From Clostridiales bacterium (GTDB lineage: Bacteria; Bacillota; Clostridia; Christensenellales; Christensenellaceae): a stretch of 64,000 bases of DNA. A program made the translations under genes and the position numbers. Below are positions 1-43,092 of this stretch, one piece after another. Within the stretch, counting starts at the first letter, position 1; each line of letters begins with the position of its first letter. The stretch covers positions 1 to 64,000 of the forward strand of contig SVGZ01000002.1 in NCBI GenBank assembly GCA_015056045.1, written 5' to 3'. The notes under the pieces are model-generated. The model did no database searches. It worked only from the letters and a program-made list of their open reading frames with translations, and was not told the origin of the DNA.

Positions 1-614
1 ACCCGCTCTGCGCTACCAACAATGGTACCATTCTTGGTGAATGGGTCAGAGATAACTGGGAAGGCAAAGTAGACAAGTATGTTCGTTTCTCCAACCCCGA
101 ATGGCCCCCGATCCTCCAGTCCAGAACTGAAGGCGGCTGGGACGCTTTCTGCAAAGTTCTCCCCGAATATGCTGATAAGAAGGACGAAATGTACAACGAA
201 GTATTCGATAACAATGACTCCCTCATCGCTCAGCAGAACGTTCGTGACTGGTTCACAAAGCAGGATGACGCTGTAACATCCGCATGGATCTCCCTGTCCG
301 ACAACTCCATCCAGGTTGTTGTAACAGAAATCGAATCCCTCGGCAAAGCAGCTCAGTCTGTATGTGTATCCAACGACTGCACACAGGTATTCCTTGAACA
401 GCTCATCGTTAAGGGCGAAGAAACCTGCTGGGTTTCCTCCCTCAACTTCAGACCCGACAACTATGGCAAAGGCCTTGTTAAGCTCGCTGAAGACCTCGTA
501 ACAGACGCTGATTCTGTTCCTTACATGACAAGCTTCGAACTCCCCGGCTGCAACATCAGCAACGTTCAGGAAATGTTCCCCGAAAAGTATGCTGAAGTAA
601 CAGCTACAATGTAA
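1..614 (+). CDS. Sugar ABC transporter substrate-binding lipoprotein, copy 1 (5' truncated by window)
   Basis: This is the C-terminal 203 residues of a periplasmic-binding-protein-fold (Peripla_BP_4/RbsB type) solute receptor. The reading frame enters at base 3 and is open from the window edge to TAA at 612-614. It aligns without gaps to the C-terminal parts of the two complete paralogs downstream, sharing for example ILQSRTEGGWDAF, QQNVRDWFTKQDDAVTSAW, CTQVFLEQLIVKG and NVQEMFPEKYAEVTATM at the end. It is the most divergent of the three, with SNPEWPPILQ where the others have NNPEYAPILQ and a different stretch around residues 95-110 of the visible part, so ligand preference could differ. The ATPase and permease that would serve it lie about 26 kb away. 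Confidence 0.93.
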   Translation, partial: PLCATNNGTILGEWVRDNWEGKVDKYVRFSNPEWPPILQSRTEGGWDAFCKVLPEYADKKDEMYNEVFDNNDSLIAQQNVRDWFTKQDDAVTSAWISLSDNSIQVVVTEIESLGKAAQSVCVSNDCTQVFLEQLIVKGEETCWVSSLNFRPDNYGKGLVKLAEDLVTDADSVPYMTSFELPGCNISNVQEMFPEKYAEVTATM

Positions 615-705
615 TCGAGCTTAGGATTTATTCTAACTGATTAACATTATGACAAGGGTCGTCACCTTTCGTCATAATGATGAAAGATGACAAAGTTCCA
701 TAATC

Positions 706-736
706 GCAGCGGAGCGGCATAAACCGCTCCTGCTGC
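706..736 (+). other. 3' stem-loop after binding-protein copy 1
   Basis: A 12-bp GC-rich stem (706-717 with 724-736, one bulged T) encloses the loop CATAAA. No T-tract follows, so it is unlikely to terminate transcription. Equivalent GC-rich stem-loops follow copies 2 and 3 at similar distances, which fits an mRNA 3'-end stabiliser or processing site for an abundant transcript. Confidence 0.6.
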
Positions 737-811
737 AAAAAACAATGCTTAAAGATTTTATATGTTATGTCCGAAAAACATAACGACAAAAAGTCGGAAA
801 TATGCTTTATT

Positions 812-843
812 AACTGCTCGCTTTGTGGGCAGTTTCTTTTTTT
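812..843 (+). terminator. Intrinsic terminator of binding-protein copy 1
   Basis: A 10-bp stem (AACTGCTCGC with GTGGGCAGTT, two G-U pairs) with a TTT loop is followed by TCTTTTTTT. It ends the copy 1 unit and separates it from copy 2. Confidence 0.75.
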
Positions 844-1078
844 GCAAATAAATTACAAAAAATATTGCAGAGATTTTAAGAAATTGCTCTTTGTAGAAGA
901 AAAGCGTTTTTTGGTCATGGTTTAAAAATGAAAGAAATACAGGGAAAAACCGAACAGGATAAAAATATATTGTTTACGAAATAAACTGATCCGTATTATT
1001 GGAAAATATACAAATCGGAAACAAATCGATATATCTTATTGTTCCGAAATAAGAATAAATTACAAAAATATAGTAAAA

Positions 1079-1108
1079 TTGATGCTTATACGATAATATT
1101 GTTACAAT
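1079..1108 (+). promoter_or_regulatory. Candidate promoter of binding-protein copy 2 and its leader
   Basis: TTGATG (1079-1084), an 18-bp spacer and TACAAT (1103-1108) form a plausible sigma-A promoter. A further TATAAT lies near 1138 without a clear -35. The leader down to 1227 has a short hairpin (TGGGA, loop AACC, TCCCA) near 1158-1171 and the ribosome binding site GGAG at 1216-1219. The stretch 844-1078 is AT-rich, and I recognise no gene in it. Confidence 0.45.
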
Positions 1109-1227
1109 TTATGTTTTCTATAAAAAGAAACAAAACGATATAATACAGTTGTCGGGTGGGAAACCTCCCAAGAACTTTGATAATCGCATATAGATACTGG
1201 GTCAACATTATTTTAGGAGATTAGATA

Positions 1228-2325
1228 ATGAAGAAATTTTTATCCCTCATTCTCGCTCTCGTAATGGTATTCTCCCTCGTAGCTTGCGGCGCTAAGACAG
1301 AAGAAGCTCCTGAAGAAGAAGCTCCCGTTGCTACAGAAATTCCCTCCGAGGAAGTAGAAATCGTTACAGGCGACACAGTAGAAGAAAACGCTGAAACAAC
1401 AGACGCACTCACACTCATTGGCTACACAGTATCCCAGGAACCCGAATTCCAGACCCGCGTTCGCACAGGCCTCCAGGCTGCTTGCGACGAAAGAGGTTAT
1501 GAACTGAAGATCGGCGTACACGGCGGCGACACAACAAAGCAGAGAGCATTCGTTGAAGCATTCATCAACGCTGGTGCTCAGGTATGCATGGACTTCGCTT
1601 CCAACGCTGAAATCGGCGCAGCTCTCGCAGAACTCTGCGACGCTTCCGGTGTCTTCATGGTTGGTATCGACGGTGACTACGGCGAACCCGCTTTCTATTT
1701 CGGCACAAACAACCCGCTCTGCGCTACCAACAATGGTACAATCCTTGCAGAATGGGTAAGAGATAACTGGGAAGGCAAAGTTGACAAGTATGTCCGCTTC
1801 AACAACCCCGAATATGCTCCGATCCTCCAGTCCAGAACTGAAGGTGGTTGGGATGCTTTCTGCGCAGTTCTCCCCGAATATGCAGACAAGAAAGATGACG
1901 TTTACTGCGAAGTATTCGTAAACTCCGACTCCCTCATTTCTCAGCAGAACGTTCGTGACTGGTTCACAAAGCAGGACGACGCTGTAACATCCGCTTGGAT
2001 CGCTCTTTCTGACAACGACATCATGGTTGCTGTTACAGAAATCGAATCCATGGGCAAGGATAAGCAGACCGTTTGCGTTGGCAACGACTGCACACAGGTA
2101 TTCCTTGAACAGCTCATCGTTAAGGGCGAAAACACATGCTGGGTTTCCTCCCTCAACTTCAGACCCGACAACTACGGCAAACTGCTCGTTAAGCTTGCAG
2201 AAGACCTCGTAACAGACGCTGCTTCCGTTCCTTACATGACAAGCTTCGATCTGCCCGGCTGCAACATTACAAACGTTCAGGAAATGTTCCCTGAAAAGTA
2301 TGCTGAAGTTACAGCTACAATGTAA
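1228..2325 (+). CDS. Sugar ABC transporter substrate-binding lipoprotein, copy 2
   Basis: This 365-residue extracellular solute receptor has a lipoprotein signal peptide (residues 1-20, lipobox LVAC with Cys20). An acidic linker rich in Glu (about 23-50) follows, then a two-lobed periplasmic-binding fold of the RbsB/Peripla_BP_4 family (about 60-340). The start is fixed by GGAG nine bases upstream of ATG and by the intact signal peptide. Family members bind sugars or related small polar solutes and hand them to RbsC/RbsA-type membrane components; the likely partners here are the genes at 26232-28699. Its codon choice is strongly biased (ACA, CTC, ATC, GTT), unlike the neighbouring housekeeping genes, suggesting high expression. 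Its first roughly 65 coding bases are identical to copy 3. The ligand is unknown. Confidence 0.95.
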   Translation: MKKFLSLILALVMVFSLVACGAKTEEAPEEEAPVATEIPSEEVEIVTGDTVEENAETTDALTLIGYTVSQEPEFQTRVRTGLQAACDERGYELKIGVHGGDTTKQRAFVEAFINAGAQVCMDFASNAEIGAALAELCDASGVFMVGIDGDYGEPAFYFGTNNPLCATNNGTILAEWVRDNWEGKVDKYVRFNNPEYAPILQSRTEGGWDAFCAVLPEYADKKDDVYCEVFVNSDSLISQQNVRDWFTKQDDAVTSAWIALSDNDIMVAVTEIESMGKDKQTVCVGNDCTQVFLEQLIVKGENTCWVSSLNFRPDNYGKLLVKLAEDLVTDAASVPYMTSFDLPGCNITNVQEMFPEKYAEVTATM

Positions 2326-2371
2326 TTTAGCTTAAGGAATTATTTCTTAAACATTTGCAGTAATTAAACGA

Positions 2372-2398
2372 CCTGCCGGAGCATAAAGCTCCGGCAGG
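2372..2398 (+). other. 3' stem-loop after binding-protein copy 2
   Basis: A perfect 11-bp stem (CCTGCCGGAGC with GCTCCGGCAGG) encloses an ATAAA loop, and no T-tract follows. The position and GC-rich stem match the stem-loops after copies 1 and 3. A weaker hairpin (ACAGTGG/CCACTGT, 2445-2469) lies between it and the terminator. Confidence 0.65.
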
Positions 2399-2488
2399 GA
2401 ATATCATAAACCCAAGTATTTATATGTCACTAACAGACAAAAGAACAGTGGAAGATGATCTGCCACTGTCCCCAAGACAAAAACTATT

Positions 2489-2514
2489 ACCGCCTGAATG
2501 GGCGGTCTTTTTTT
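2489..2514 (+). terminator. Intrinsic terminator of binding-protein copy 2
   Basis: ACCGCC pairs with GGCGGT across a six-base loop and is followed by CTTTTTTT. The AT-rich stretch from 2515 to 3017 shows no gene or structure I can name. Confidence 0.8.
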
Positions 2515-3017
2515 ATGTCTTTATTTTAACGCCGGCGGATATAATTTGCAAGATTTGCTTTTGCAGGCCGGATTGCATCGGATCCATGCCGGTTTTTGCC
2601 TTTGCAATGGCATTTTTTGCCCGATCAGACAGGAATAATTTTATAAAGCGCAAAGAAAAATAGATCAAAGTCATAATTTATTCCAATAAATATTACGGAA
2701 ATATTACAGAAGTATATATAAAAGTAAATAAAATCGAATTGAAAACGAAATAAACAAGATCGTGCAAAAAGAAGTAGTGCGATCAAAAAATGCCTGAATG
2801 GTGGGAAATTTTGAAAATGATCTTGAAAATGTTAAAAACGGATACCGAAAGCGGCATAAATTGTTCGTTTTGATCCGTTTACAAAATATTGAAACCTGTA
2901 AACGAAATGAAAATGGAAAGACAACTGATTTCCGGTCAAAACAGCAATTTAATACAATTTCGAAAAGATTTTCATTGAAAAATGCAAACAACTTGTAAAA
3001 GTGTTTCTTTTTTGTGT

Positions 3018-3086
3018 TTGACGGGAAATCCTGCAAAAATTATAATAAGCACGTGCTTTGAAAGAAGCGCAAAGAACATTTACAAT
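3018..3086 (+). promoter_or_regulatory. Two tandem promoters of binding-protein copy 3
   Basis: The first promoter is TTGACG (3018-3023), a 17-bp spacer and TATAAT (3041-3046), one base from consensus. The second is TTGAAA (3058-3063), a 17-bp spacer and TACAAT (3081-3086). Both read toward the gene at 3136, giving leaders of roughly 85 and 45 bases. Two near-consensus promoters fit high-level expression of a binding protein. Confidence 0.75.
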
Positions 3087-3135
3087 AGAATACAGACTCC
3101 AAATGTGCGGAATACTTTATATTGGAGATTAGATA

Positions 3136-4230
3136 ATGAAGAAATTTTTATCCCTCATTCTCGCTCTCGTAATGGTATTCTCCCTCGTAGCATGTGGTGC
3201 TAAGACAGAAGAAGAAGTTTCTGAAGCTCCCGTTGCTACAGAAATTCCCTCCGAGGAAGTAGAAATCGTTACAGGCGACGAAGTAAAAGAAAACGAAGAA
3301 ACAGTTGATGCACTTTCCATCATTGGTTACACAGTAAACCAGGAACCCGAATTCCAGACCCGTGTTCGCACAGGCCTCCAGGCTGCTTGCGACGAAAGAG
3401 GTTATGAACTGAAGATCGGTGTTTATGGCGGCGACACAACAAAGCAGAGAGCATTCGTTGAAGCATTCATCAACGCTGGTGCTCAGGTATGCATGGACTT
3501 CGCTTCCAACGCTGAAATCGGCGCAGCTCTCGCTGAACTCTGCGATGCTTCCGGCGTTTACATGATCGGCGTTGACGGCGACTATGGCGAACCCGCTTAC
3601 TATTTCGGCACAAACAACCCGCTCTGCGCTACCAACAATGGTATCATCCTCGCTGAATGGGTTAGAGATAACTGGGAAGGCAAAGTAGACAAATTCGTCC
3701 GCTTCAACAACCCCGAATACGCTCCGATCCTCCAGTCCAGAACTGAAGGCGGTTGGGATGCTTTCTGCTCCGTACTCCCTGAGTATGCTGAAAAGAAAGA
3801 CGAAGTTTATGAAGAAGTTTTCGTAAACGCTGACTCCCTCATTTCTCAGCAGAACGTTCGTGACTGGTTCACAAAACAGGACGACGCTGTAACATCCGCT
3901 TGGATCGCTCTCTCTGACAACGACATCATGGTTGCTGTTACAGAAATCGACTCCATGGGTAAGACAAAGGACACCGTTTGCGTTGGTAACGACTGCACAC
4001 AGGTATTCCTTGAACAGCTCATCGTTAAGGGCACAGAAACCTGCTGGGTTTCCTCCCTCAACTTCAGACCCGACAACTACGGCAAACTGCTCGTTAAACT
4101 TGCAGAAGACCTGATGACCGACGCTGAATCCGTTCCTTACATGACAAGCTTCGATCTCCCCGGCTGCAACGTTACAAACGTTCAGGAAATGTTCCCTGAA
4201 AAGTATGCTGAAGTAACAGCTACAATGTAA
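3136..4230 (+). CDS. Sugar ABC transporter substrate-binding lipoprotein, copy 3
   Basis: This 364-residue lipoprotein of the RbsB-like family has a signal peptide with lipobox LVAC (Cys20), an acidic linker and a two-lobe solute-binding domain. It is almost colinear with copy 2; most differences fall in the linker and at scattered positions such as residues near 160, 216-225 and 270-275. The ribosome binding site and signal-peptide region (from GGAG at 3124 through the Ala codon before lipobox Cys) are base-for-base identical to copy 2, whereas sequence further upstream is unrelated. This points to duplication or gene conversion bounded near the ribosome binding site. It is transcribed alone, from its own promoters to its own terminator. 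Confidence 0.95.
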   Translation: MKKFLSLILALVMVFSLVACGAKTEEEVSEAPVATEIPSEEVEIVTGDEVKENEETVDALSIIGYTVNQEPEFQTRVRTGLQAACDERGYELKIGVYGGDTTKQRAFVEAFINAGAQVCMDFASNAEIGAALAELCDASGVYMIGVDGDYGEPAYYFGTNNPLCATNNGIILAEWVRDNWEGKVDKFVRFNNPEYAPILQSRTEGGWDAFCSVLPEYAEKKDEVYEEVFVNADSLISQQNVRDWFTKQDDAVTSAWIALSDNDIMVAVTEIDSMGKTKDTVCVGNDCTQVFLEQLIVKGTETCWVSSLNFRPDNYGKLLVKLAEDLMTDAESVPYMTSFDLPGCNVTNVQEMFPEKYAEVTATM

Positions 4231-4269
4231 TTGGGCCCAGGATCTGACTTTTAAAAACTAAAAATAAAA

Positions 4270-4295
4270 TCTGCCGGAGCGCGACCTCCGGCAGA
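4270..4295 (+). other. 3' stem-loop after binding-protein copy 3
   Basis: A perfect 10-bp stem (TCTGCCGGAG with CTCCGGCAGA) has a six-base loop and no T-tract. It is the counterpart of the hairpins after copies 1 and 2. Confidence 0.6.
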
Positions 4296-4351
4296 TAAAT
4301 ACCACCCGCATTGGAATCTGTATAAGAGAAAAACAAGTAACACTGCATTTT

Positions 4352-14261: not shown

Positions 14262-15245
14262 TTATTTGTTTTCTTTTCTTAATTTTTCTGCCAGGATATG
14301 AGGATCATCCTGCCAGGGTCTTGCCTTGACATAGTCTTTGAATTCATCGCGATAGGAGAGGATCTTCATATCTCTTTCGATGGAGCCTTCACTGCCCATT
14401 GTGAGGAAGCCGCCGTCTACCATGTATTCGCTGCCGGTGACATAGGAAGCATCATCGGAAAGCAGGAAGAGTACGGTCGAAGCACATTCAACGGGTTCGC
14501 CGAGGCGCAGAAGCATCGTTTCACGGCTGGAACCAAAAGCTCTTTTTGCTCTGTCTTCCGGGGAAACATCGGGCTCTGTCATGCCGCGTGTGGTGACTCT
14601 TGTCCAGATGCCTGCGGGGCTCATTGCGTTGATGCGGATGTTGTCTCTCGCATAGTTGAGAGCAGCAGCCTTTGTCATCATGCCGACGCCGCCTTTCAGT
14701 GTGTTATAGATCCACATGCTCTGTGCGATATGGCCGGAGATCGAGGAAACGTTGACGATAGCACCGCCGCCGATCTTGATCATTTCCTTTGCGGAATTAT
14801 CGATCATGCGTGCATAGTTCAGGATACCGTTTGTGAAGCCAAACATCCAGTCATCTGTTGTGACCTCTCTGCCTTTCATAACGAAGGGGAAGGCATTGTT
14901 GACGAGGTAATTGAGTTTGCCCCAATATTCAACTGTCTTATCGACGACGTAGTGACAGAATTCTTCGCTGCCCATATCGCCCTGGAGATATAAAACCTTG
15001 TTTTCAAGGCCTTCTTTTTTCAGGTCTTCGATGAAAAGATTTGCTGTTTCGGCTTTTCTGCCGGTGAAGGTAACGTTTGCACCTTCGCGGACGAGTTCTT
15101 CAACGATGGATCTGCCGATACCTGTCGAACCGCCGGTTACGATAGCAACCTTATCCTTGAATCTATCCGGGACGGGTTTTCTTGTGCGAATGAAAATGTT
15201 GTCTGTGTTGTAGTTTGCGAAGTCGTAATTCTTGTTAAAAAACAT
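14262..15245 (-). CDS. Short-chain dehydrogenase/reductase, array member 8 (promoter-distal)
   Basis: This 327-residue classical-type SDR oxidoreductase interconverts an alcohol and a ketone using NAD(P). It contains the Rossmann motif TGGSTGIG (about residues 37-44), an FTGRK segment after the second strand (Arg here usually signals NADP(H)), NNAF in place of NNAG, a VSSIS serine and YNTLK as the active-site YxxxK. The C-terminal VTGSEYMVDGGF is followed by a tail of about 40 residues ending PWQDDPHILAEKLRKENK. ATG 15245 is preferred over an upstream in-frame TTG because AAAGGAG precedes it. It shares an N-terminus (RTRKPVPDRFKDKVAIVTGG) with the first SDR of the array, more than with its immediate neighbours. 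The substrate is unknown. Confidence 0.93.
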   Translation of the reverse strand: MFFNKNYDFANYNTDNIFIRTRKPVPDRFKDKVAIVTGGSTGIGRSIVEELVREGANVTFTGRKAETANLFIEDLKKEGLENKVLYLQGDMGSEEFCHYVVDKTVEYWGKLNYLVNNAFPFVMKGREVTTDDWMFGFTNGILNYARMIDNSAKEMIKIGGGAIVNVSSISGHIAQSMWIYNTLKGGVGMMTKAAALNYARDNIRINAMSPAGIWTRVTTRGMTEPDVSPEDRAKRAFGSSRETMLLRLGEPVECASTVLFLLSDDASYVTGSEYMVDGGFLTMGSEGSIERDMKILSYRDEFKDYVKARPWQDDPHILAEKLRKENK

Positions 15246-15296
15246 TGTCGCCGCTCCTTTGAACAAGTTGTAATGCGTTATGATGTATAGGAAAAA

Positions 15297-16256
15297 TTAT
15301 TTCTTTCTGCGGAAATGAAGCTCGCCCGGGGGTGTAATACCATAGCGTTCTTCACGGAGATGCAGCATCTGCAGACCGCCCTGACTGCCCGCAGTAATGA
15401 AACCGCCGTCTACCATGAATTCTGTACCGGTGATATAGGAAGCATCATCGGATAAGAGGAAAAGCGTTGCCGCTGCACATTCGACGGGTTCGCCTGCGCG
15501 GTTGAGCATGTAGCCCTTTGTATTGAATTTGACGAAGTTGCGTGCATCTTCGTTGGTCGTTCCTTCTTTCAAGAAGAAACGCATGGTCTGTCTTGTCCAG
15601 ATATGCGCCGGAGACATGATATTGACGCGGATATTATCACGTGCAAAGTCCATCGCCGCCGATTTGGAAAGCATATTGACGCCGCCTTTCATGGAGTTAT
15701 ATGTCCAGTTGCCCTGTGCGATATGCGCAGAGATCGAAGAGACGTTTACAATAGCACCGCCGCCGACTTTGATCATTTCTTCGGAAGCGAAGCTCATCAT
15801 GCGTGCATAAGCGAAAAGACCGCCGTTGAAGATCGTCATAAAGTCTTCTGTGGTGAAGTTTCTGTCTACCATGACGAAGGGGAAAGCGTTATTGACGAGG
15901 TAATCGACTCTGCCGAAAGCTTTTGCGGTTTCATCAACGGTTTTGTGGCAGTCTTCTTCTTTGGACATATCCGCCTGAATGAAGAGGTAGCCCGAAAGAC
16001 CAAGGGAATCCAGATGTTCAATGGCAGCTTTGCCTGTTTCGGCTTTTCTGCCGGTAAAGGAGACCTGACAGCCTTCTTTCAAGAGTTCTTCAACGATCGC
16101 AAGGCCGATACCCGAAGTACCGCCTGTAACGATGGCTGCTTTTCCGGAAAATCTGCCGGGAATGATCTCTCTAGATCTGCGGAGGACCGTATTCATTGTG
16201 ATCGGCGCTTCGTAGTTGAGGTCGCGGTTTATATTGAGTTCGTAATTATCTTTCAT
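15297..16256 (-). CDS. Short-chain dehydrogenase/reductase, array member 7
   Basis: This 319-residue SDR has TGGTSGIG at residues 44-51, NNAF at 122-125, serines 173/174 and the catalytic pair Tyr186/Lys190 in YNSMK. An N-terminal lead containing ELNINRDLNYEAPIT precedes the Rossmann fold and is shared with members 4-6. FTGRK after the second beta strand suggests NADP(H). The start overlaps the stop of the preceding gene by four bases (ATGA). The tail after VDGGF is shorter than in members 4-6. This is probably the most recent duplication with member 6, judged by the near-identical central segment around FAREEMIKVGGG/NWTYNSMKGGVNMLSKSAAMDFARDN. Confidence 0.93.
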   Translation of the reverse strand: MKDNYELNINRDLNYEAPITMNTVLRRSREIIPGRFSGKAAIVTGGTSGIGLAIVEELLKEGCQVSFTGRKAETGKAAIEHLDSLGLSGYLFIQADMSKEEDCHKTVDETAKAFGRVDYLVNNAFPFVMVDRNFTTEDFMTIFNGGLFAYARMMSFASEEMIKVGGGAIVNVSSISAHIAQGNWTYNSMKGGVNMLSKSAAMDFARDNIRVNIMSPAHIWTRQTMRFFLKEGTTNEDARNFVKFNTKGYMLNRAGEPVECAAATLFLLSDDASYITGTEFMVDGGFITAGSQGGLQMLHLREERYGITPPGELHFRRKK

Positions 16257-17272
16257 TCTTTCGTATCCTCCGGGTAAAGTGCAGGGTAATAGCTTGCGGG
16301 AATGCTGCCCGGTTTTGTCGTTGAGTAACCGTTGCCGTGGCTAGGTTCAATGCCATAGACGCGTTCATCACGGTAGCTTTTGGAAAGCGCACCCTGACTG
16401 CCAAGCGCAATGAATCCGCCGTCTACCATGAATTCCGTTGCCGTAATATAGGAAGCATCATCGGAAAGCAGGAAAAGCGTTGCCGCTGCACATTCAACGG
16501 GTTCACCGCCGCGGTTCAACATATAGCCTTTGGCGGTATATTTGACGGATTCTCTGCGTTTTTCGTTGGAAGCAGAGCTGAAGGATGTTCCCGGTCGCAT
16601 GGTTCGCCTTGTCCAGATATGCGCCGGAGAGACGATATTGACGCGGATGTTATCCCTTGCAAAATCCATGGCTGCGGATTTGCTGAGCATATTGACGCCG
16701 CCTTTCATGGAATTATATGTCCAGTTGCCCTGCGTAATATGTGCAGAGATCGAGGAAATATTGACCATAGATCCGCCGCCGACTTTGAGCATTTCATAGG
16801 AAGCGAAGCTCATCATGCGTGCATACGCCATGAGACCGCCTTCAAAAATGCGCATCCAATCATCTCTTGTGAAGTTTCTGCCGACCATGATGAAAGGGAA
16901 GGCATTATTGACCAGATGATCGAGTCTGCCGAAAGCTTCAACTGTCTTATCGACGGTCATGCGGCAATCCTCTTCCTTGCTCATATCAGCCTGGATATAG
17001 AGGAAATCCGTAAGCCCCATTGCGGTCAGTTCTTCGGAAATAGCTTTACCCGTTTCGGGGTCTCTGCCGGTAAAGGCGACTTTTGCACCTTCTTTTAAGA
17101 GTTCTTCGACGATCGCAAGACCAATGCCAGCGGTTCCACCGGTAACGATGGCGACTTTGCCTGCGAAACGGTTTTCGATCGTTTTTCTTTCGCGGGAAAG
17201 AATGGTATGTGCGTCGATCGGCTCATCATAATTGAGGTCACGGTTGATGTTTAATTCATAAAGATCTCTCAT
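16253..17272 (-). CDS. Short-chain dehydrogenase/reductase, array member 6
   Basis: This 339-residue SDR has the lead ELNINRDLNYDEPI, TGGTAGIG, FTGRD, NNAF, VNISSIS and YNSMK. A C-terminal extension containing RDERVYGIEP and a TTKP...YYPALYP end follows the usual VDGGF terminus. It overlaps both neighbours by four bases, indicating tight translational coupling. It is closest to member 7 within the catalytic core. Substrate and direction of reaction are unknown. Confidence 0.93.
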   Translation of the reverse strand: MRDLYELNINRDLNYDEPIDAHTILSRERKTIENRFAGKVAIVTGGTAGIGLAIVEELLKEGAKVAFTGRDPETGKAISEELTAMGLTDFLYIQADMSKEEDCRMTVDKTVEAFGRLDHLVNNAFPFIMVGRNFTRDDWMRIFEGGLMAYARMMSFASYEMLKVGGGSMVNISSISAHITQGNWTYNSMKGGVNMLSKSAAMDFARDNIRVNIVSPAHIWTRRTMRPGTSFSSASNEKRRESVKYTAKGYMLNRGGEPVECAAATLFLLSDDASYITATEFMVDGGFIALGSQGALSKSYRDERVYGIEPSHGNGYSTTKPGSIPASYYPALYPEDTKE

Positions 17273-18303
17273 CTGTCAACCTCCTTATTGAGCTTTTCGA
17301 ATAATTCAGGGTAATGGGAAGTCGGCTTTGTGAATTTTGTGCCTGAATAATGCCTGCCGTAGATCGGCTCTAAGGAGTATTCACGCTCATCGCGGAAACC
17401 CTTATCGATCGAACCCTGACTGCCAAGCGTCAGGAAACCTGCATCGACCATAAATTCACTGCCGGTAATATAGGAAGCATCATCCGATAAGAGGAAGAGC
17501 GTTGCTGCTGCACATTCAACGGGTTCACCGCCGCGGTTGAGCATATAGCCCTTTGCCGTATAGCGGATCGAATCACGGACCTCATTCGGATCGGGATGAT
17601 TGAAATCGTTTTTGGTCTGTCTTGTCCAGATATGCGCCGGAGACATCAGGTTGACGCGGATGTTATCTCTTGCGAAATCTTTTGCCGCAGAGTTGGAAAG
17701 CTGACCGACGATGCCCTTCATTGTGTTATAGGTCCAGCGCCCGCCCTGGGTAATATGACCGGAAATAGAGGAAACATTGACGATAGAACCGCCGCCGACT
17801 TTGATCATATGCGGTGCAACGAGCTGCATCATCTGTGCATAAGCAAGAGGACCGCCGATAAAGCTCCTGTACCAAAGTTCGTTATCGAGGTCGCGTCTTG
17901 TCGAGCCAAAGGGGAAGGCATTATTGACGAGATAATCGATCCTGCCGAATTTTTCTGCCGTTGTTTCGACAGTGCGGATGCAGTCTTCTTCTTTGGAGGT
18001 GTCTGCCTTGATGAAAAGGTAATTCTTCAATCCCTGTGCATCGAGGATCTCTTCGGCTTCGATTGCTGTTTTTTCGTTTCTGCCGGAAAAAGCAACAGCA
18101 CAGCCTTCTTTTAAGAGCTCTTCCACGATCGAAAAACCAATGCCCGATGTTCCGCCGGTAACGATGGCTACTTTGCCCTTGAAACGATCGGGGATCGCCT
18201 TTCTGCTGCGGGAAGTGATCGTTTCCGGTGTCTGCGGAATATCGTAATTAAGGTCACGATTGATATTCAGTTCGTATAAAGTCTGATCCTTATCCATCAT
18301 CAT
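17269..18303 (-). CDS. Short-chain dehydrogenase/reductase, array member 5
   Basis: This 344-residue SDR has the lead ELNINRDLNYDIPQ, TGGTSGIG, FSGRN, NNAF and VNVSSIS. YNTMK is preceded by one extra residue in the loop (TQGGRWTYNTMK). The C-terminal extension reads RDEREYSLEPIYGRHYSGTKFTKP and ends HYPELFEKLNKEVDR. Several Met codons at the start leave the exact first residue uncertain; ATG 18303 has an AAGG upstream. It is four bases from the preceding gene. Confidence 0.93.
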   Translation of the reverse strand: MMMDKDQTLYELNINRDLNYDIPQTPETITSRSRKAIPDRFKGKVAIVTGGTSGIGFSIVEELLKEGCAVAFSGRNEKTAIEAEEILDAQGLKNYLFIKADTSKEEDCIRTVETTAEKFGRIDYLVNNAFPFGSTRRDLDNELWYRSFIGGPLAYAQMMQLVAPHMIKVGGGSIVNVSSISGHITQGGRWTYNTMKGIVGQLSNSAAKDFARDNIRVNLMSPAHIWTRQTKNDFNHPDPNEVRDSIRYTAKGYMLNRGGEPVECAAATLFLLSDDASYITGSEFMVDAGFLTLGSQGSIDKGFRDEREYSLEPIYGRHYSGTKFTKPTSHYPELFEKLNKEVDR

Positions 18304-18307
18304 TGCC

Positions 18308-19402
18308 TTATTTCTTGTTCTTCATATGGCGTTTGCCAAGGTGATCTTTGATATCCCAGCCTTCGGGGGTATCTTCAAATGCGGTCGGGTATTCGCCGAA
18401 AAGCTCGGGATAATCGCGCTGCGGTTTCTTAAAGAGTGTTCCGGAATGACCGTCGCCATGCGTATGGGTAATGCCATAGACATGATGGTCGCGGAAGCCC
18501 TTATCAACACAGCCCTGACTGCCTAAGGTCAGGAAGCCGCCGTCTACCATAAATTCGCTGCCGGTGATATAGGAAGCGTCATCGGAAAGCAGGAAAAGGG
18601 TAGCTGCTGCACATTCGATGGCTTCGCCTGCACGGTTTAACATATAGCCTTTATTCGTATAGCGGTAGTGCGCACGAACCTGTTCGGGTGTTGCTTTTCT
18701 TGCGCCCGTAATGCCGCCGTTTGTACGTCTTGTCCAGATATGCGCCGGAGACATCAGGTTGACACGGATGTTATCTCTTGCGAAATCCATTGCCGCGGAA
18801 CGGGAAAGCATGCCGACGACACCTTTCATCGTGTTGTATGTCCAGTTGCCCCATTGTGCGATATGGCCGGAGATCGAGGAAACGTTGACGATAGCACCGC
18901 CGCCGTTTTTTACCATATATTCCCCACAGAACTTCATCATACGCGCATAGGAAAGCGGACCGCCATTAAAGGCACGCATCCAGACCTCGTTATCGATGTT
19001 GCGCTTTGTCGAATCGAAAGCAAAGGCGTTGTTGACAAGGTAATCGATCTTTCCGAAGGTTTCATAGGTGCGGTCTGCGATCATGCGGCAGCTTTCTTCA
19101 AGAGCGGTATCTGCCTGAATGAAGAGATACTTTTCCTTATCAAAGCCCTGTGCCTCGAGGTCGATCAGGACCTGTTTGGCTGTTTCAAGGTTTCTGCCTG
19201 TGAAAGCGACGCTTGCACCTTCTTTTAAGAGTTCCTCGACACAGGAAAGACCAATGCCCGAAGTTCCGCCGGTAACGATAGCAACTTTGCCGTCAAAACG
19301 ATGCGGAATGACATCTCTTACTCTCGAAGTGATCGTTTCGATCGTGATAGGTTTTACAAAATCGAGGTCGCGGTTGATGTTGAGTTCTTGTAAGTTTTTC
19401 AT
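18308..19402 (-). CDS. Short-chain dehydrogenase/reductase, array member 4
   Basis: This 364-residue protein is the longest of the eight SDRs. It has the lead ELNINRDLDFVKPIT, TGGTSGIG, FTGRN, NNAF, VNVSSIS and YNTMK (preceded by QWGNWT). An extended C-terminus contains FKKPQRDYPELFGEYPTAF followed by a basic GKRHMKNKK end. The insertion GGITGARKATPEQVRAHYRY before the YMLNRAGE motif differs from the other members and lies where SDRs shape the substrate pocket. It starts within an ATGA overlap with member 3. Confidence 0.93.
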   Translation of the reverse strand: MKNLQELNINRDLDFVKPITIETITSRVRDVIPHRFDGKVAIVTGGTSGIGLSCVEELLKEGASVAFTGRNLETAKQVLIDLEAQGFDKEKYLFIQADTALEESCRMIADRTYETFGKIDYLVNNAFAFDSTKRNIDNEVWMRAFNGGPLSYARMMKFCGEYMVKNGGGAIVNVSSISGHIAQWGNWTYNTMKGVVGMLSRSAAMDFARDNIRVNLMSPAHIWTRRTNGGITGARKATPEQVRAHYRYTNKGYMLNRAGEAIECAAATLFLLSDDASYITGSEFMVDGGFLTLGSQGCVDKGFRDHHVYGITHTHGDGHSGTLFKKPQRDYPELFGEYPTAFEDTPEGWDIKDHLGKRHMKNKK

Positions 19403-20406
19403 TTTTCCAGATGTTCCCCAAAAAGTTCAGGATAATGTTCAACGGGTTTCTTATGCATTGTGCTGCCCCAACCATTGCCGGGGATCCAGTATTTTTCTTC
19501 ATAGAGGCGTTCATCGCGTCTCGGCATATCGATACCGCCCTGACTGCCCATTGCGATAAAACCGCCGTCTGCAAGGAATTCCGTACCGGTGATATAGGAA
19601 GCATCATCGGAAAGCAGGAAGAGAGTAGGTGCTGCCACTTCGACGCATTCACCGCCGCGGTTAAGCATGTGGTTCTGACCTGTGAACTTGATGCTTTCGT
19701 ATTCTTCATCGGAAAGTTCATGTTCAAAACGGCGTGTCATGCGTTCTGTCCATGTATGTGCAGGGCTGACCTGATTGATGCGGATGTTATCGCGGACGTA
19801 TTCAAGAGCTGCGGATTTTGTCATCATGCCGACAGCGCCTTTCATGACGTTATAGGTAAAGAACTGAGGCTGTGCGATATGGCCGGAGATCGAGGAAATA
19901 TTGACAATAGAACCGCCGCCGACTTTTTTCATTTCAACGGCACAGTTTCTGATCATACGCGCATAGTTGACAGGACCGCCGAAGAAGCATTCATACCAAT
20001 CCTCTGTTGTGACAGCGCTGCAGGTGCGGCTCATCATATTGAAAGCATTGTTGACGAGGAGATCGACTTTGCCGAATTTGGCAACGGTTTCATCGACGAT
20101 CTTCTGGCAGAATTCTTCGTTTGCCATATCGCCTGCCAGATAGAGGCAATCTTCAAGGCCTTCTTCTTTGAATGCTGCGATCGTAGCATCGCCGACAGCC
20201 TGTCTTCTGCCTGTAATGGTAACTTTTGCGCCTTCACGGAGGAGTTCATATGCAATGGAACGGCCGATGCCTGCTGTACCGCCGGTAACGATAGCTACTT
20301 TGCCCTTGAAACGATCGGGAAAAAATTCCCTTGTACGGGACATGAGTGTGTTATAGGTAATTTTTTCAGTATAAAAACGGTCTTCGTTTATATTTCTCGG
20401 TATCAT
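19399..20406 (-). CDS. Short-chain dehydrogenase/reductase, array member 3
   Basis: This 335-residue SDR has the N-terminal lead NINEDRFYTEKIT, TGGTAGIG, ITGRR (two arginines after the Gly, a strong NADP(H)-type signature), NNAF, VNISSIS and YNVMK. The tail HKKPVEHYPELFGEHLEK again carries the KPxxxYPELF ending. It is preceded by a 76-bp gap holding a perfect 11-bp hairpin, the largest interruption between SDR genes apart from that before member 1. Confidence 0.93.
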   Translation of the reverse strand: MIPRNINEDRFYTEKITYNTLMSRTREFFPDRFKGKVAIVTGGTAGIGRSIAYELLREGAKVTITGRRQAVGDATIAAFKEEGLEDCLYLAGDMANEEFCQKIVDETVAKFGKVDLLVNNAFNMMSRTCSAVTTEDWYECFFGGPVNYARMIRNCAVEMKKVGGGSIVNISSISGHIAQPQFFTYNVMKGAVGMMTKSAALEYVRDNIRINQVSPAHTWTERMTRRFEHELSDEEYESIKFTGQNHMLNRGGECVEVAAPTLFLLSDDASYITGTEFLADGGFIAMGSQGGIDMPRRDERLYEEKYWIPGNGWGSTMHKKPVEHYPELFGEHLEK

Positions 20407-20445
20407 ATATTACTCACCCTTTTGGATGTTTTTTTTCGAAATCAA

Positions 20446-20471
20446 GCTTGTGCGGCTGCTGCCGCACAAGC
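20446..20471. other. Intercistronic hairpin inside the SDR operon
   Basis: GCTTGTGCGGC pairs perfectly with GCCGCACAAGC around the loop TGCT (AGCA on the transcribed strand). No U-tract follows on the minus strand, so a processing, stabilising or weak attenuation role is more likely than full termination between members 2 and 3. Confidence 0.6.
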
Positions 20472-20482
20472 AGAATTCTTAA

Positions 20483-21526
20483 TTATTTTTCTTCATTATC
20501 GACGCTTGCCGGGTTCTTATAGACAACTTCGATGTCGTCTTTATGGTGGCGCGGTTCATCGCCGTCATGAAGATCTTCGAAGGAATTGCGGCCAAGGATG
20601 ATCGATTTTCTGTAATCGAGTCCATAGACTTCCATATCCCTTCTGGCTTTATCGACAGCGCCCTGATTGCCAAGGGCGATAAGGCCGCCGTCTACAAGGT
20701 AATCGCTTCCGGTGACATATGTCGCATCATCGGAAAGCAGGAAAAGAGCAACGCTGGCACATTCAACAGGTTCGCCTGCACGGTTGAGCATATAGCCGTG
20801 GCTTTCGGATTTCATATGCTTACGTCGTGCTTCTTTGGTGCCTGTGATAAGATCGCCTGTTGTGACTCTGGTAAAGATCGTTGCCGGAGAGAGTGTATTG
20901 ACGCGGATGTTGCTGTGTGCAAGGTCGATCGCGGCATTTTTTGTGAGCATATTGACAGCGCCTTTCATCATGGAATAAGTCCAGAAATGAGGCTGTGCGA
21001 TACGCCCGGAAATGGAGGAGATATTAACGACTGCACCACCACCGACCTTACGCATATAAGGAACGCAATTCTGAATCATGCGTGCATAGCCAACGGGACC
21101 GGTAAAGAAAGCTCTTTCCCAATCTCTTGTCGTTGCGTCGAGGCCTTTCATAATGAAAAGGAAAGCGTTGTTGACAAGATAGTCGATGCGTCCCCATTTT
21201 TCATAGGTCTTTTCTGCGATCTCGCGGCAAAATTCTTCGCTCATCATATCGCCTGCAAGATACATGACTTCTGTCAAGCCTTCTTTTGCCATTTCGGCAA
21301 CGGTCTCTGCACCTGTCTGCGGGTTTCTGCCGGTAATGGTTACACGGCAGCCTTCTTTCATAAGTTCCTCTGCAATGGCTCTCCCGATACCGGCAGATCC
21401 ACCGGTAACAATAGCAACTTTACCGTCAAAACGATGCGGAACGAAATTCCTTCGGCGAGAGATGTATTCTTTGGTGATCAGTTCGTCGTAGTTAAGATCT
21501 CTGTTGATAAAAGAAGTCGTTTCCAT
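20483..21526 (-). CDS. Short-chain dehydrogenase/reductase, array member 2
   Basis: This 347-residue SDR has the lead FINRDLNYDELIT, TGGSAGIG, ITGRN, NNAF, VNISSIS and YSMMK (the only member with YS instead of YN). GRIAQ replaces GHIAQ or AHIAQ in the loop between Ser and Tyr. The C-terminus after VDGGL is distinct, carrying RRDMEVYGLDYRKSIILGR and a charged end without the YPELF motif. The ribosome binding site is poor, and the gene starts eight bases after member 1, so coupled translation is likely. Confidence 0.92.
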   Translation of the reverse strand: METTSFINRDLNYDELITKEYISRRRNFVPHRFDGKVAIVTGGSAGIGRAIAEELMKEGCRVTITGRNPQTGAETVAEMAKEGLTEVMYLAGDMMSEEFCREIAEKTYEKWGRIDYLVNNAFLFIMKGLDATTRDWERAFFTGPVGYARMIQNCVPYMRKVGGGAVVNISSISGRIAQPHFWTYSMMKGAVNMLTKNAAIDLAHSNIRVNTLSPATIFTRVTTGDLITGTKEARRKHMKSESHGYMLNRAGEPVECASVALFLLSDDATYVTGSDYLVDGGLIALGNQGAVDKARRDMEVYGLDYRKSIILGRNSFEDLHDGDEPRHHKDDIEVVYKNPASVDNEEK

Positions 21527-21534
21527 TAGCGTTG

Positions 21535-22398
21535 TCAGTTCTTATATTCGTCCTGTTTTTCTTCTCTGGAGGGCATACCCTGCGGGCTTAATGTGAGGTT
21601 GCCGCCGTCTACCATGTACTCTGTGCCTGTGAGGAAGGAAGCTTCATCAGAAAGCAGGAAGAGGCAAGGACCTGCAACTTCAACCGGCTGGCCGCTTCTT
21701 TCGAGGAGTTCGTAAGAAGGACGGTTCTGCAGGAAGACAGCAACTTCTTCGTCTGTCATATCGACAAAACGGCGTGTTGTGAGCTCGGAAAGGATGTTGC
21801 CCGGGGAAAGTGTGTTGATACGGATATTGTCAAAAGCATAGTCCATAGCTGTGCAGACTGTGAGCATATTGACAGCGCCTTTTGCACTGTTGTATGTCCA
21901 TCTGTCGGGCTGACCGATGTGTGCAGAGATGCTGGACATATTGACGATGGAGCCGAAGCCGGCTTCTTTCATGTGTTCTGCGCAGAGCTGGATCATCTTT
22001 GCATAAGCAAAGGGACCTGTTTCGAAAACTTCGAGCCAATCTTCGCGTGTAGCGTCTTTGCCCTTGGATGTGAAGGAGAATGCGTTGTTGACGAGATGGT
22101 GAACGGTTCCCCATTTTTCAACTGTCTTTGCAACGATTTCTTCGCAGAATGCTTCGCTTCTCATGTTGCCTGCGAGGAACATGACTTCAAAGCCCTGTGC
22201 CTTCATTTCAGCTTCAGCTTTCTTGCCTTTTTCTTCGTTTCTGCCGGTGAAGCAGACTTTTGCACCTTCTTTGCAGAGCTCTTCGACGATAGATCTGCCG
22301 ATGCCTGCGGAGCCGCCTGTAACGATAGCGACTCTGTCTTTGAATCTGTCGATTACGGGTTTTCTGGTTCTCCAGAAAATCTTGTTCATATCAGCCAT
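21535..22398 (-). CDS. Short-chain dehydrogenase/reductase, array member 1 (promoter-proximal)
   Basis: This SDR of about 287 residues has the short lead FWRTRKPVIDRFKDRVAIVTGGSAGIG, FTGRN, NNAF, VNMSSIS and YNSAK (the closest to the classical YxASK). It lacks the long C-terminal extension of members 3-6 and ends soon after VDGGNLTLSPQG. ATG 22398 follows GGAGG by 11 bases; a longer in-frame reading from 22455 lacks a ribosome binding site. Two glutamine-rich loop residues (GQPDRWTY) differ from the other members. It is separated from the lyase genes by about 200 bp containing a hairpin. Confidence 0.9.
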   Translation of the reverse strand: MADMNKIFWRTRKPVIDRFKDRVAIVTGGSAGIGRSIVEELCKEGAKVCFTGRNEEKGKKAEAEMKAQGFEVMFLAGNMRSEAFCEEIVAKTVEKWGTVHHLVNNAFSFTSKGKDATREDWLEVFETGPFAYAKMIQLCAEHMKEAGFGSIVNMSSISAHIGQPDRWTYNSAKGAVNMLTVCTAMDYAFDNIRINTLSPGNILSELTTRRFVDMTDEEVAVFLQNRPSYELLERSGQPVEVAGPCLFLLSDEASFLTGTEYMVDGGNLTLSPQGMPSREEKQDEYKN

Positions 22399-36313: not shown

Positions 36314-36672
36314 GGGGGTGTACTTGGCTTTCGACGGGGTTCATTGAGGACGGATAAGCAGGCGGCAGACCCCGGATCTGCCTTAAAAGCTGGGAATTAA
36401 AATTAAACGCTAATAACAATTACGAATTAGCTGCTGCGTAACGCAGCGCCGTCACGCCCGGAATCTCCCGATGTTCCGGTGCCTGGCGTCAATTTAATCG
36501 GGAAACCGCTTTATTTTCGGCCTTTGGAATAAAGAGAGGACAAAGAAGGCTGCCCGGAGCGAATCCAGCAAAAGAGGAGTCGCCGAGGAAAGATCAAAAT
36601 TTTTTGCTAAGCTTGTAGAAAGTTCGTTGGCAGGGATTTCGGACAGGGGTTCAACTCCCCTCATCTCCACCA
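36314..36672 (+). ncRNA. ssrA: Transfer-messenger RNA
   Basis: This 359-nt single-piece tmRNA rescues stalled ribosomes. The 5' end (GGGGGTGTACTTGGCTTTCG) pairs with the 3' CATCTCC to form the acceptor stem, and ACCA is encoded. The T arm GGGGTTCAACTCCCC lies just before the 3' end. The tag reading frame starts at GCT about 85 bases in and encodes ANNNYELAAA followed by TAA, ending with the Ala residues expected for a protease-recognition tag. It is adjacent to smpB as in many Firmicutes. Confidence 0.97.
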
Positions 36673-40838: not shown

Positions 40839-41507
40839 ATGTTCAAACATGAAAAACAGTTATTTCATCCCGTTGCGGTCGAACGCCCGAACCCACAGTA
40901 TGCCGTTCTTTTGCAGGAGCAGCTCGGCGGAGGCAACGGTGAATTAAAAGCGGCAATGCAGTATATGTCGCAGAGTTTCCGCATCAAAGATCCCGAGATC
41001 AAAGACCTTTTCCTTGATATTGCTGCGGAAGAGCTCGGGCACATGGAAATGGTTGCACAGACGATCAACCTCTTAAACGGACACGAGGTCAATGCGTTGG
41101 GTGTACCGGCAGGCGAAATTCAGACGCACGTTATCCTTGGGTTATCGCCCGGTCTGATCAATGCTTCGGGCTATTCCTGGACGGGTGATTACGTCACCGT
41201 TACGGGCGATTTGGCGGCAGATCTGCTTTCCAATATTGCCTCGGAGCAGCGTGCCAAAGTCGTTTATGAATACCTTTACAGGCAGATCGGCGATAAAAAA
41301 GTCAGGGAAACGATTGATTTCCTTTTGAACAGGGAAGAAGCGCACAATGCGATGTTCCGCGAAGCCTTTAACAAGATCCAGGAAAGCGATTCGAACAGAG
41401 ATTTCGGTACAACGCAGGCTGCAAAGATGTATTTCAGCATGTCGGAACCTTCGCCCAAAGACAGCCGATTCACCAGCGTAGAGGCAAACCCGCCGTCATT
41501 TAAGTAA
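40839..41507 (+). CDS. Manganese catalase family protein (CotJC-like)
   Basis: This 222-residue ferritin-like dimanganese catalase disproportionates hydrogen peroxide. Metal-ligand motifs are Glu35 in GELKAAMQYMSQ, Glu65-His68 in EELGHME, and the pair in NREEAHNAMFREAF (about 167-180). The middle carries the family segment GASGYSWTGDYV-like INASGYSWTGDYVTVTGDLAADLLSNIASEQRAK. Length matches the short CotJC type found in spore coats and vegetative cells of Clostridia. It is a lone gene with a strong terminator, part of the duplicated 29-bp element. Confidence 0.92.
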   Translation: MFKHEKQLFHPVAVERPNPQYAVLLQEQLGGGNGELKAAMQYMSQSFRIKDPEIKDLFLDIAAEELGHMEMVAQTINLLNGHEVNALGVPAGEIQTHVILGLSPGLINASGYSWTGDYVTVTGDLAADLLSNIASEQRAKVVYEYLYRQIGDKKVRETIDFLLNREEAHNAMFREAFNKIQESDSNRDFGTTQAAKMYFSMSEPSPKDSRFTSVEANPPSFK

Positions 41508-41519
41508 AAAAATAAGCAA

Positions 41520-41548
41520 AAAGACGACCGATAAAGGTCGTCTTTGTT
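41520..41548. repeat. 29-bp direct repeat, left copy (terminator of the manganese catalase gene)
   Basis: A 10-bp perfect stem (AAAGACGACC / GGTCGTCTTT) with a GATAAA loop and trailing GTT functions as the catalase terminator. It recurs base for base at 42142-42170 in the same orientation. The loop sequence shows the copies are direct, not inverted. Confidence 0.9.
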
Positions 41549-41552
41549 GTTA

Positions 41553-41765
41553 TCAGAAAATATTATCATCCGGGAAATGCTCCATGATTTCTTCGACACG
41601 GCAGGAAAGAATGTTGCAGAGTTTGTCTATGGTGTTGATCTCAACATTTTTATTCTTGCGTAATCGGTCAAGCTGCGAACGATTGATATGATGATGCGTA
41701 TAGAGATCATACTGGCTGATACCGCGTTTTTTCATTGTTTCCCATAAGCGGTCATATTTGATCAT
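41553..41765 (-). CDS. Small XRE/Cro-type HTH regulator
   Basis: This 70-residue single-domain DNA-binding protein has an opening MIKYDRLWETMKKRGISQYDLYTHHHINRSQLDRLRKNKN and a later TIDKLCNILSCRVEEIMEH. This is the Cro/C1-type HTH_26 pattern. ATG 41765 is chosen for GGAG at the right distance. It is divergent from the small AT-rich ORF at 41866, with a palindrome between them, so it probably regulates that gene and itself. It lies inside the segment bounded by the 29-bp repeats; mobile-element control is possible. Confidence 0.85.
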   Translation of the reverse strand: MIKYDRLWETMKKRGISQYDLYTHHHINRSQLDRLRKNKNVEINTIDKLCNILSCRVEEIMEHFPDDNIF

Positions 41766-41789
41766 ACGCATCTCCTCTCTTGCAAAAGC

Positions 41790-41852
41790 TTGACTTTTTA
41801 TCATTATCTCTATAAAATGCAAATTATAATAGTGTTCGCATAACGACACTAT
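41790..41852 (+). promoter_or_regulatory. Promoter and candidate operator of the small ORF
   Basis: TTGACT (41790-41795), a 17-bp spacer and TAAAAT (41813-41818) drive rightward. Just downstream, ATAGTGT (41829-41835) and ACACTAT (41846-41852) form an inverted repeat, a natural binding site for the divergent HTH protein. Confidence 0.6.
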
Positions 41853-41865
41853 AGGGAGATGAATA

Positions 41866-42156
41866 ATGAATAGCAATGTTGAAGAGCGTGTATATGATAG
41901 CTTGATTGGCATATTGGTTGAACCTATATCGGGCATTGAAGACGCATTTAGGTCAGGTTCTGATTGTGATAGAAAATACGAAGAGATATATGCATTATAT
42001 ACAAGAATAAAACAAGCAACAAATCAGGAAATCGTTCATCTTGATTTAGATAGAATAATAGATTTGATGTTAGAAATTCAAAGAATTCTGTGTTACAAAA
42101 TGTTTCGTTATGGTGTAATGTATGAATGTTTAAATAATAATAAAGACGACCGATAA
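41866..42156 (+). CDS. Small AT-rich protein of unknown function in the repeat-flanked module
   Basis: This 96-residue helical protein has no confident family assignment; it loosely recalls small phage or mobile-element proteins. It starts at ATG 41866 after AGGGAG. Base composition is clearly more AT-rich than neighbouring genes, which suggests transfer. The final codons (GAC GAC CGA TAA) lie inside the right 29-bp repeat, with the stop in the terminator loop, so the C-terminus appears to have been set by the joining event. Confidence 0.7.
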   Translation: MNSNVEERVYDSLIGILVEPISGIEDAFRSGSDCDRKYEEIYALYTRIKQATNQEIVHLDLDRIIDLMLEIQRILCYKMFRYGVMYECLNNNKDDR

Positions 42157-42170
42157 AGGTCGTCTTTGTT
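42142..42170. repeat. 29-bp direct repeat, right copy (terminator between small ORF and patatin gene)
   Basis: This copy is identical to 41520-41548. It contains the stop codon of the small ORF and its last base belongs to the stop codon of the convergent patatin-like gene. The two copies bound a segment of about 620 bp. Confidence 0.9.
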
Positions 42171-43015
42171 TATTCAAAATATTCTTTCAGCTTAGTCAGG
42201 TTCTTTTCGGCTGCTTTTCGGCCAAGTATATAAACGCGGTCAAGCTCTGCGGTGTCTTTTTCCATGATCGAGATCCCGAGCGGCTCATCCGGGCAAATGA
42301 CAAAGCAGTTTCCCTTTTTTTCCTGTTCAAAAATGTAGTCTGTCGTTTCGTTATAAACATCATGACGGCGTGCAACGGCTTCGATAAGCTTCGGATATTT
42401 TTTCATCACAAGGCGGAGGATCGGCAGCATTTTGTTTTTCTCTTTGACAAAACCGCGCGGCTGTGTTAAGACAACGAGGTTTTTATCGTAGCCGATGCTT
42501 TCAAAAAAGCGGATCGGGATCGAATCGATAAGACCGCCATCCATGAGCTTTTGACCGCCGATCTCCACAATATTGGCAGCAAGCGGCAAAGAAGCCGAGG
42601 CTCTTATCCATTCGAGAAATTCATGTCCTGCTTTTTCGCATTTGCGGTAAACCGCTTCGCCTGTTTCAATATCGGCAGCGACAACATAAAACTCCATCGG
42701 GGAAGCTTCAAAAGCCTTTCCATCGAAAATATCGAGCTCATCGGGAACGGTATGGTAGCAGAATTCGGCATTGAAAAGATCGCCTGTTTTGATGAGTGAA
42801 GAAAAACTGCGGTAACGCTTATCGCCGATGAAGCGTTTCTGATAGCGGATGACACGGCCGATCTGCCCGGATTTATAGTTGCAGCCAAATGCCGCGCCTG
42901 CGGAAACGCCGATCGCACCGTCAAATTCGATCCCGTTTTCCATCAGCACATCGATGACGCCTGCACTGAAAAGCCCGCGCAAAGCACCGCCTTCTAAAAC
43001 AAGTCCTTTTTTCAT
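42170..43015 (-). CDS. Patatin-like phospholipase family protein
   Basis: This 281-residue lipid acyl hydrolase has a Ser-Asp dyad. The oxyanion motif GGALRG (residues 9-14), nucleophile elbow GVSAGA (about 36-41, Ser38) and Asp in DGGLIDS (about 160) are present. It has no signal peptide, so it is presumably cytoplasmic or membrane-associated. ATG 43015 follows AAAGGAG; an in-frame start at 43039 is less likely. It is convergent with the repeat-flanked module. Confidence 0.9.
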   Translation of the reverse strand: MKKGLVLEGGALRGLFSAGVIDVLMENGIEFDGAIGVSAGAAFGCNYKSGQIGRVIRYQKRFIGDKRYRSFSSLIKTGDLFNAEFCYHTVPDELDIFDGKAFEASPMEFYVVAADIETGEAVYRKCEKAGHEFLEWIRASASLPLAANIVEIGGQKLMDGGLIDSIPIRFFESIGYDKNLVVLTQPRGFVKEKNKMLPILRLVMKKYPKLIEAVARRHDVYNETTDYIFEQEKKGNCFVICPDEPLGISIMEKDTAELDRVYILGRKAAEKNLTKLKEYFE

Positions 43016-43092
43016 AAACCGCTCCTTTCCGAAAAACATTATAGCACAAAACAGCTGGACGGATTTTATGTATTTTATGAACTTTTGGCGGC

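Follow-up and report, generated by a model that had tools for sequence, protein, structure and literature searches.

The window, the whole 64,000-nucleotide stretch of DNA that was analysed, carries two small genes enclosed by a perfect direct repeat, each copy of which is a terminator. The question raised by this locus is how a cassette with no mobility gene came to lie between two identical hairpins. The features concerned are listed below.

40839–41507, + strand: host gene A, cotJC, a CotJC-type manganese catalase gene converging on T1 (Pfam Mn_catalase, 1e-55)
41520–41548, unstranded: T1, first copy of the 29 bp bidirectional hairpin terminator (repeat search, folding)
41553–41765, − strand: XRE (HTH_26) regulator, 70 amino acids (Pfam HTH_26, 4.6e-18)
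41790–41818, + strand: promoter-like TTGACT-17-TAAAAT for the small ORF (the region's best site, by consensus match only)
41829–41852, unstranded: candidate operator palindrome ATAGTGT-N10-ACACTAT with 7 bp arms, between the two genes (read from the sequence, operator role putative)
41866–42156, + strand: cargo, the small ORF, a putative small helical protein of 96 amino acids from an unnamed family (homologues, signature)
42142–42170, unstranded: T2, identical second terminator copy (repeat search, folding)
42170–43039, − strand: host gene B, a patatin-like phospholipase with a DUF6363 C-terminus, converging on T2 (Pfam Patatin, 1.1e-19; DUF6363, 3.3e-23)

The repeat, AAAGACGACCGATAAAGGTCGTCTTTGTT, is present twice in direct orientation with a period of 622. 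The description in the first-pass annotation, a perfect 29 bp repeat that acts as a terminator and is identical through the loop, holds: both copies fold on both strands at −17 to −21 kcal/mol (z −6 to −7) and are strong bidirectional hairpins. In the whole draft assembly (2.07 Mb in 44 contigs, 80% complete) a 28-mer of the repeat occurs at T1 and T2 only, and an assembly-wide search for the stem GACGACC-N3-8-GGTCGTC gave no further site. The possibility raised earlier, that this is a common terminator, is thus not borne out, nor is the hairpin dispersed genome-wide in the manner of an uptake sequence. The 26 bp hairpin has no match in the viral contigs searched, and the region matches no Rfam family. 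Of the 19,925 pairs of distant hairpins sampled from the genome, one is about as alike as T1 and T2, which places the repeat far beyond chance.

T1 has the convergent genes cotJC and xre on either side, and T2 has the small ORF and patatin. Since each copy lies between convergent genes, removal of the cassette together with one hairpin would leave cotJC and patatin sharing a single bidirectional terminator. The coding sequences run into T2 from both directions: the 3′ end of the small ORF is inside it (codons for KDDR and a stop codon in the hairpin loop), and the patatin stop codon overlaps the final base of the repeat.

The content of the module is as first described, an xre gene, a palindrome and a gene of no known family, and these are the sole genes between cotJC and patatin, with neither integrase nor transposase. 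The module might depend on a partner elsewhere, as was first proposed. XRE may repress the divergent promoter by way of the palindrome. The small ORF has no match in Pfam, PHROGs, NCBIfam or PADLOC, and searches of viral contigs and plasmids with it gave no relatives. Homologues are found in genomes G285, G321, G015, G012, G421 and G543 and in Lachnospiraceae prophages, and the aligned relatives have the signature F..G..C...Y and F..G in common. The prophage relatives, from Agathobacter, Dorea and Coprococcus, are 30–33% identical (E 2e-3 to 3e-2), and in the Agathobacter and Coprococcus records a small HTH gene is followed by the small-ORF relative. In G285 and G321 the relative is divergent from an XRE gene, and in G421 and G543 from a protein that reads as ribbon-helix-helix-like. 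Among the relatives the small protein is constant and its DNA-binding partner varies. As judged by sequence comparison, the small ORF is the founding member of an unnamed, putatively helical family whose members are paired with a divergent regulator of the XRE or RHH type. Its single-sequence fold is all-helical at low confidence (pLDDT 58). The small ORF matches no known toxin family, and a divergent gene order is unusual in type II toxin–antitoxin pairs. Two phage records, PV036418 and PV036442 (L013 and L015), end in a ComEC-like gene, such that host DNA at a comEC integration site has seemingly been included.

The arrangement recurs in the same genome. Hairpins were scanned in 1.42 Mb (69% of the genome), and a score of at least 20 was reached by 7 of 175 local pairs (within 8 kb) as against 1 of 19,925 distant pairs. 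With paralogue and simple-repeat cases removed, the figures are 5/175 and 1/19,925 (Fisher p ∼3e-10). Sixty adjacent intergenic terminator pairs are bimodal: six score at least 17 (five units and a tRNA repeat) and 54 score 8 or less. The five matched-hairpin units, in order of genes, are these.

C13 (the window locus): cotJC, hairpin, divergent xre and small ORF, hairpin, patatin; 29 bp identical
C29: GH78-like gene, hairpin, divergent xre and TM-zinc protein gene, hairpin, SDR gene; 36 bp identical
C34: GH43-like gene, hairpin, divergent tetR and EamA gene, hairpin, aldo-keto reductase gene; 26 bp
C12: DUF2383-like gene, hairpin, divergent TM2 gene and xre, hairpin, glutamate synthase small-subunit gene; one loop mismatch
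C5: hairpins that enclose a co-directional two-component operon and not a divergent pair

The names GH78, GH43 and glutamate synthase subunit are sequence readings with no Pfam match. The units are mutually unrelated and each locus has a different hairpin sequence. Four of the five share one layout, in which a divergent regulator and cargo are flanked on each side by a terminator on which a host gene converges. Direct repeats are present at both cassette ends, of 29 bp in the window and 20–36 bp in the other units, and none of the five units (0/5) has a recombinase gene between its repeats. XRE cassettes are A + T-rich (GC 0.34–0.39 vs 0.466); the tetR–EamA cassette has an ordinary GC content. 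Matching pairs are commoner where a divergent unit lies between convergent genes (4/6 vs 1/53, p 1.6e-4), an architecture class defined post hoc, once the cases were known. The two divergent units with unlike hairpins, at C4 12070 and C5 31219, have no evident regulator on inspection of the sequence.

Several other repeats were set aside as separate phenomena: duplicated genes (C13 99570/105625), a tRNA repeat (C16 82576/83459), a short tandem block (C25 79/216), and the dispersed repeats formed by GGGCGACC and CCTCCC hairpins. Just 3′ of the T2 of the C12 cassette (L148, G000 C12, 9286–9480) there are two decayed partial copies of the 3′ end of the glutamate synthase small-subunit gene, which suggests repeated events at that site. 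A contig end (L230, G000 C25, 1–260) displays a 137 bp tandem repeat of a tRNA end and a hairpin, possibly an assembly edge effect.

Most cases come from one draft genome, and further ones were found in other families. The G287 case is a C29-cargo relative, divergent from an XRE gene, between the copies of a 28 bp perfect repeat of another hairpin. In G099 a C29-type cargo with XRE lies between hairpins that have the same stem and diverged loops, and in G543 a small-ORF relative lies between mutually inverted hairpin copies (loop TTTGC vs GCAAA). The G321 cassette is between convergent genes with different hairpins and displays no duplication; the G285, G421 and G079 cassettes also have no duplication, and one neighbour of each is not convergent. 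None of 30 HTH_26 loci from 200 genomes has the duplicated-hairpin arrangement. The comparison genomes are weak controls, with few adjacent hairpin pairs and no units of the regulator–cargo layout. The TM-zinc cargo was not found in the phages and plasmids searched. In G287 (L249, 168–430) there is also a partial third copy of the left arm of the hairpin, ∼240 bp from T1, as if a small element had entered the same hairpin; the spacer between this partial arm and T1 is repeat-rich and has an 11 bp direct repeat, AAGAGATAGGT. A 2.35 kb unit in L178-L187 (G013 C1, 88479–90856) lies between a tRNA gene and a tRNA cluster, and its flanking hairpins have identical stems and differ in their loops.

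The boundaries of the duplicated block coincide with the hairpin. Homology does not go beyond the hairpin with its A/T tracts: the flanks further out resemble each other no more than the flanks of unrelated hairpins do. The presence of AAAATATT to the right of both copies suggested a longer duplicated block, but it is not significant relative to other hairpin flanks. A fixed-length short target duplication does not fit, as the blocks vary from 20 to 36 bp and each coincides with the local hairpin. The cassette ends have no shared motif, and the inner ends display no terminal inverted repeats beyond chance in the genome's own five cases; for G287, p is 0.013 uncorrected. Confinement of homology to the hairpin and the lack of inverted repeats argue against ordinary transposition, simple homologous recombination and the tandem duplication of a longer segment; they favour an event whose limits are set by the hairpin. 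Because the hairpin sequences differ from locus to locus, the copies appear to come from the site and not from the cassette; ends borne by an element were rejected, each locus having its own hairpin.

From the repeat, its uniqueness and its recurrence with different hairpins we infer that a cassette inserted into a shared bidirectional terminator, with the event delimited by structure and the hairpin copied; the probability of this reading is put at roughly 55%. At the start, a single bidirectional hairpin terminator would have served the convergent genes cotJC and patatin. A two-gene divergent cassette, encoding XRE and the small helical protein, would then have entered the terminator, leaving one copy of the hairpin at each end, and the duplicated unit would comprise the target's hairpin with its A/T tracts and little else. 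As an outcome, the host genes would each keep a terminator and the cassette genes would each gain one. An extruded hairpin might receive a nick in each strand at its base, open to admit the incoming DNA and be filled in, so that either end would bear a complete copy; the route could equally well be template switching at the hairpin.

The initial proposal that a shared terminator was duplicated on entry of the module is upheld in part. Recurrence with locus-specific terminators, in this genome and in cargo relatives, is in its favour, and the support does not come from an empty site. Such a site was found for none of the matched-hairpin cases, which counts against the insertion. In the sister genus, cotJC orthologues (79–82% identical) have other terminators and other genes downstream. 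None of 80 patatin loci in genome contigs is syntenic with the window (best identity 62%), and within the family the neighbours of patatin and cotJC are unrelated. Nor did the searches yield a syntenic relative, and none was found with the module at the cotJC–patatin locus and divergent terminators. Recombination between two terminators, the other initial proposal, is the less probable, as each copy matches nothing but its partner and locally identical hairpins are limited to cassette-type units.

Among the rival explanations, the one that survives best is that the cassette arrived by ordinary means with its own terminator, and that short gene conversion or replication template switching later overwrote one of the two nearby hairpins. 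Very short tracts at a structured site would give an identity limited to the hairpin, and the inverted loop of the G543 pair fits strand switching. Conversion, however, should affect any close terminator pair, whereas nearly all other adjacent pairs are unrelated and there are no graded intermediates; the hairpins would also have had no initial homology from which to start. This explanation is considered unlikely.

It is improbable that the hairpin is an attachment core, the terminator having served the recombinase of a derelict integrative element as attB, with attL and attR left behind. Flanking direct repeats of 26–36 bp do suit tyrosine recombinase sites, and prophages carry small-ORF relatives next to a small HTH gene, with a serine recombinase nearby. 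Yet the cores at the genome's five loci are unrelated to one another, so a single enzyme would need to recognize structure and not sequence; moreover, no cassette has a recombinase, and neither a shared motif nor an inverted repeat is present at the ends. Cargo between repeats of 26–36 bp is likewise a feature of genomic islands with att-core direct repeats, but the cores found here are another hairpin at each locus and no integrase is present.

Strain-to-strain allelic exchange of inter-gene regions, by homologous recombination in the flanking genes, would make the terminator copy a by-product of the variant's origin. The cassettes are indeed flanked by ordinary genes and have no mobility gene, as in the minimal mobile elements of Neisseria, which are whole-gene cassettes between conserved genes without mobility genes (Saunders and Snyder; PMC3082526). 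The arrangement by which these are recognized, two conserved genes enclosing a cassette that carries no gene for mobility, is present in the window, in that cotJC and patatin have only xre and the small ORF between them. As described there, minimal mobile elements are defined by strain variation and flanking-gene recombination, with no locus-specific duplicated terminator. Allelic exchange accounts for spread but not for the locus-specific duplication of a hairpin, and as the origin of the arrangement it is highly improbable. The least credible explanation is that the repeat is an artefact or a coincidence, whether through a pair of independent terminators or through a short-repeat misassembly in the 44-contig, 80% complete draft, as identity that includes the loop is far beyond chance, a misjoin would give one junction and not a flanked insert, and the pattern is seen in other assemblies.

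If a cassette did insert into the shared hairpin, the process resembles known systems in part. Group IIC introns recognize terminator hairpins and insert beside them without duplication; the target is alike, but here the hairpin is duplicated and there is no intron or reverse transcriptase. The insertion sequences ISPsy8 and ISRm22 carry a transposase, split REP sequences and duplicate 2–6 bp (PMC1525189). They likewise use a hairpin target between convergent genes and spare transcription signals, whereas the present loci have two copies of the complete hairpin and lack a transposase. A literature search for duplicated terminators found the pattern described nowhere. Because it recurs with different terminators in this genome and in three other families, the arrangement resembles the trace that would be left by an undescribed process in which cassettes insert at terminators and the terminator is copied. 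It is tentatively suggested that a process in this bacterial class reads the hairpin of a bidirectional terminator by its structure, inserts regulator–cargo cassettes and duplicates the whole hairpin.

The entry of small regulator–cargo cassettes without mobility genes into genomes has so far been largely unexplained. Matched terminators point to structure-directed insertion or copying, which would also explain why neighbouring transcription is undisturbed. They provide a footprint that does not depend on sequence, for which any genome can be scanned, and they would flag recent cassette insertions. If this is true, terminators would serve small mobile gene modules generally as safe-harbour points of entry.

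Elsewhere in the window, two blocks (1–4296 and 14400–21900) consist of tandem paralogous genes with long exact repeats, and a tmRNA gene with the tag ANNNYELAAA is present at 36314–36672.
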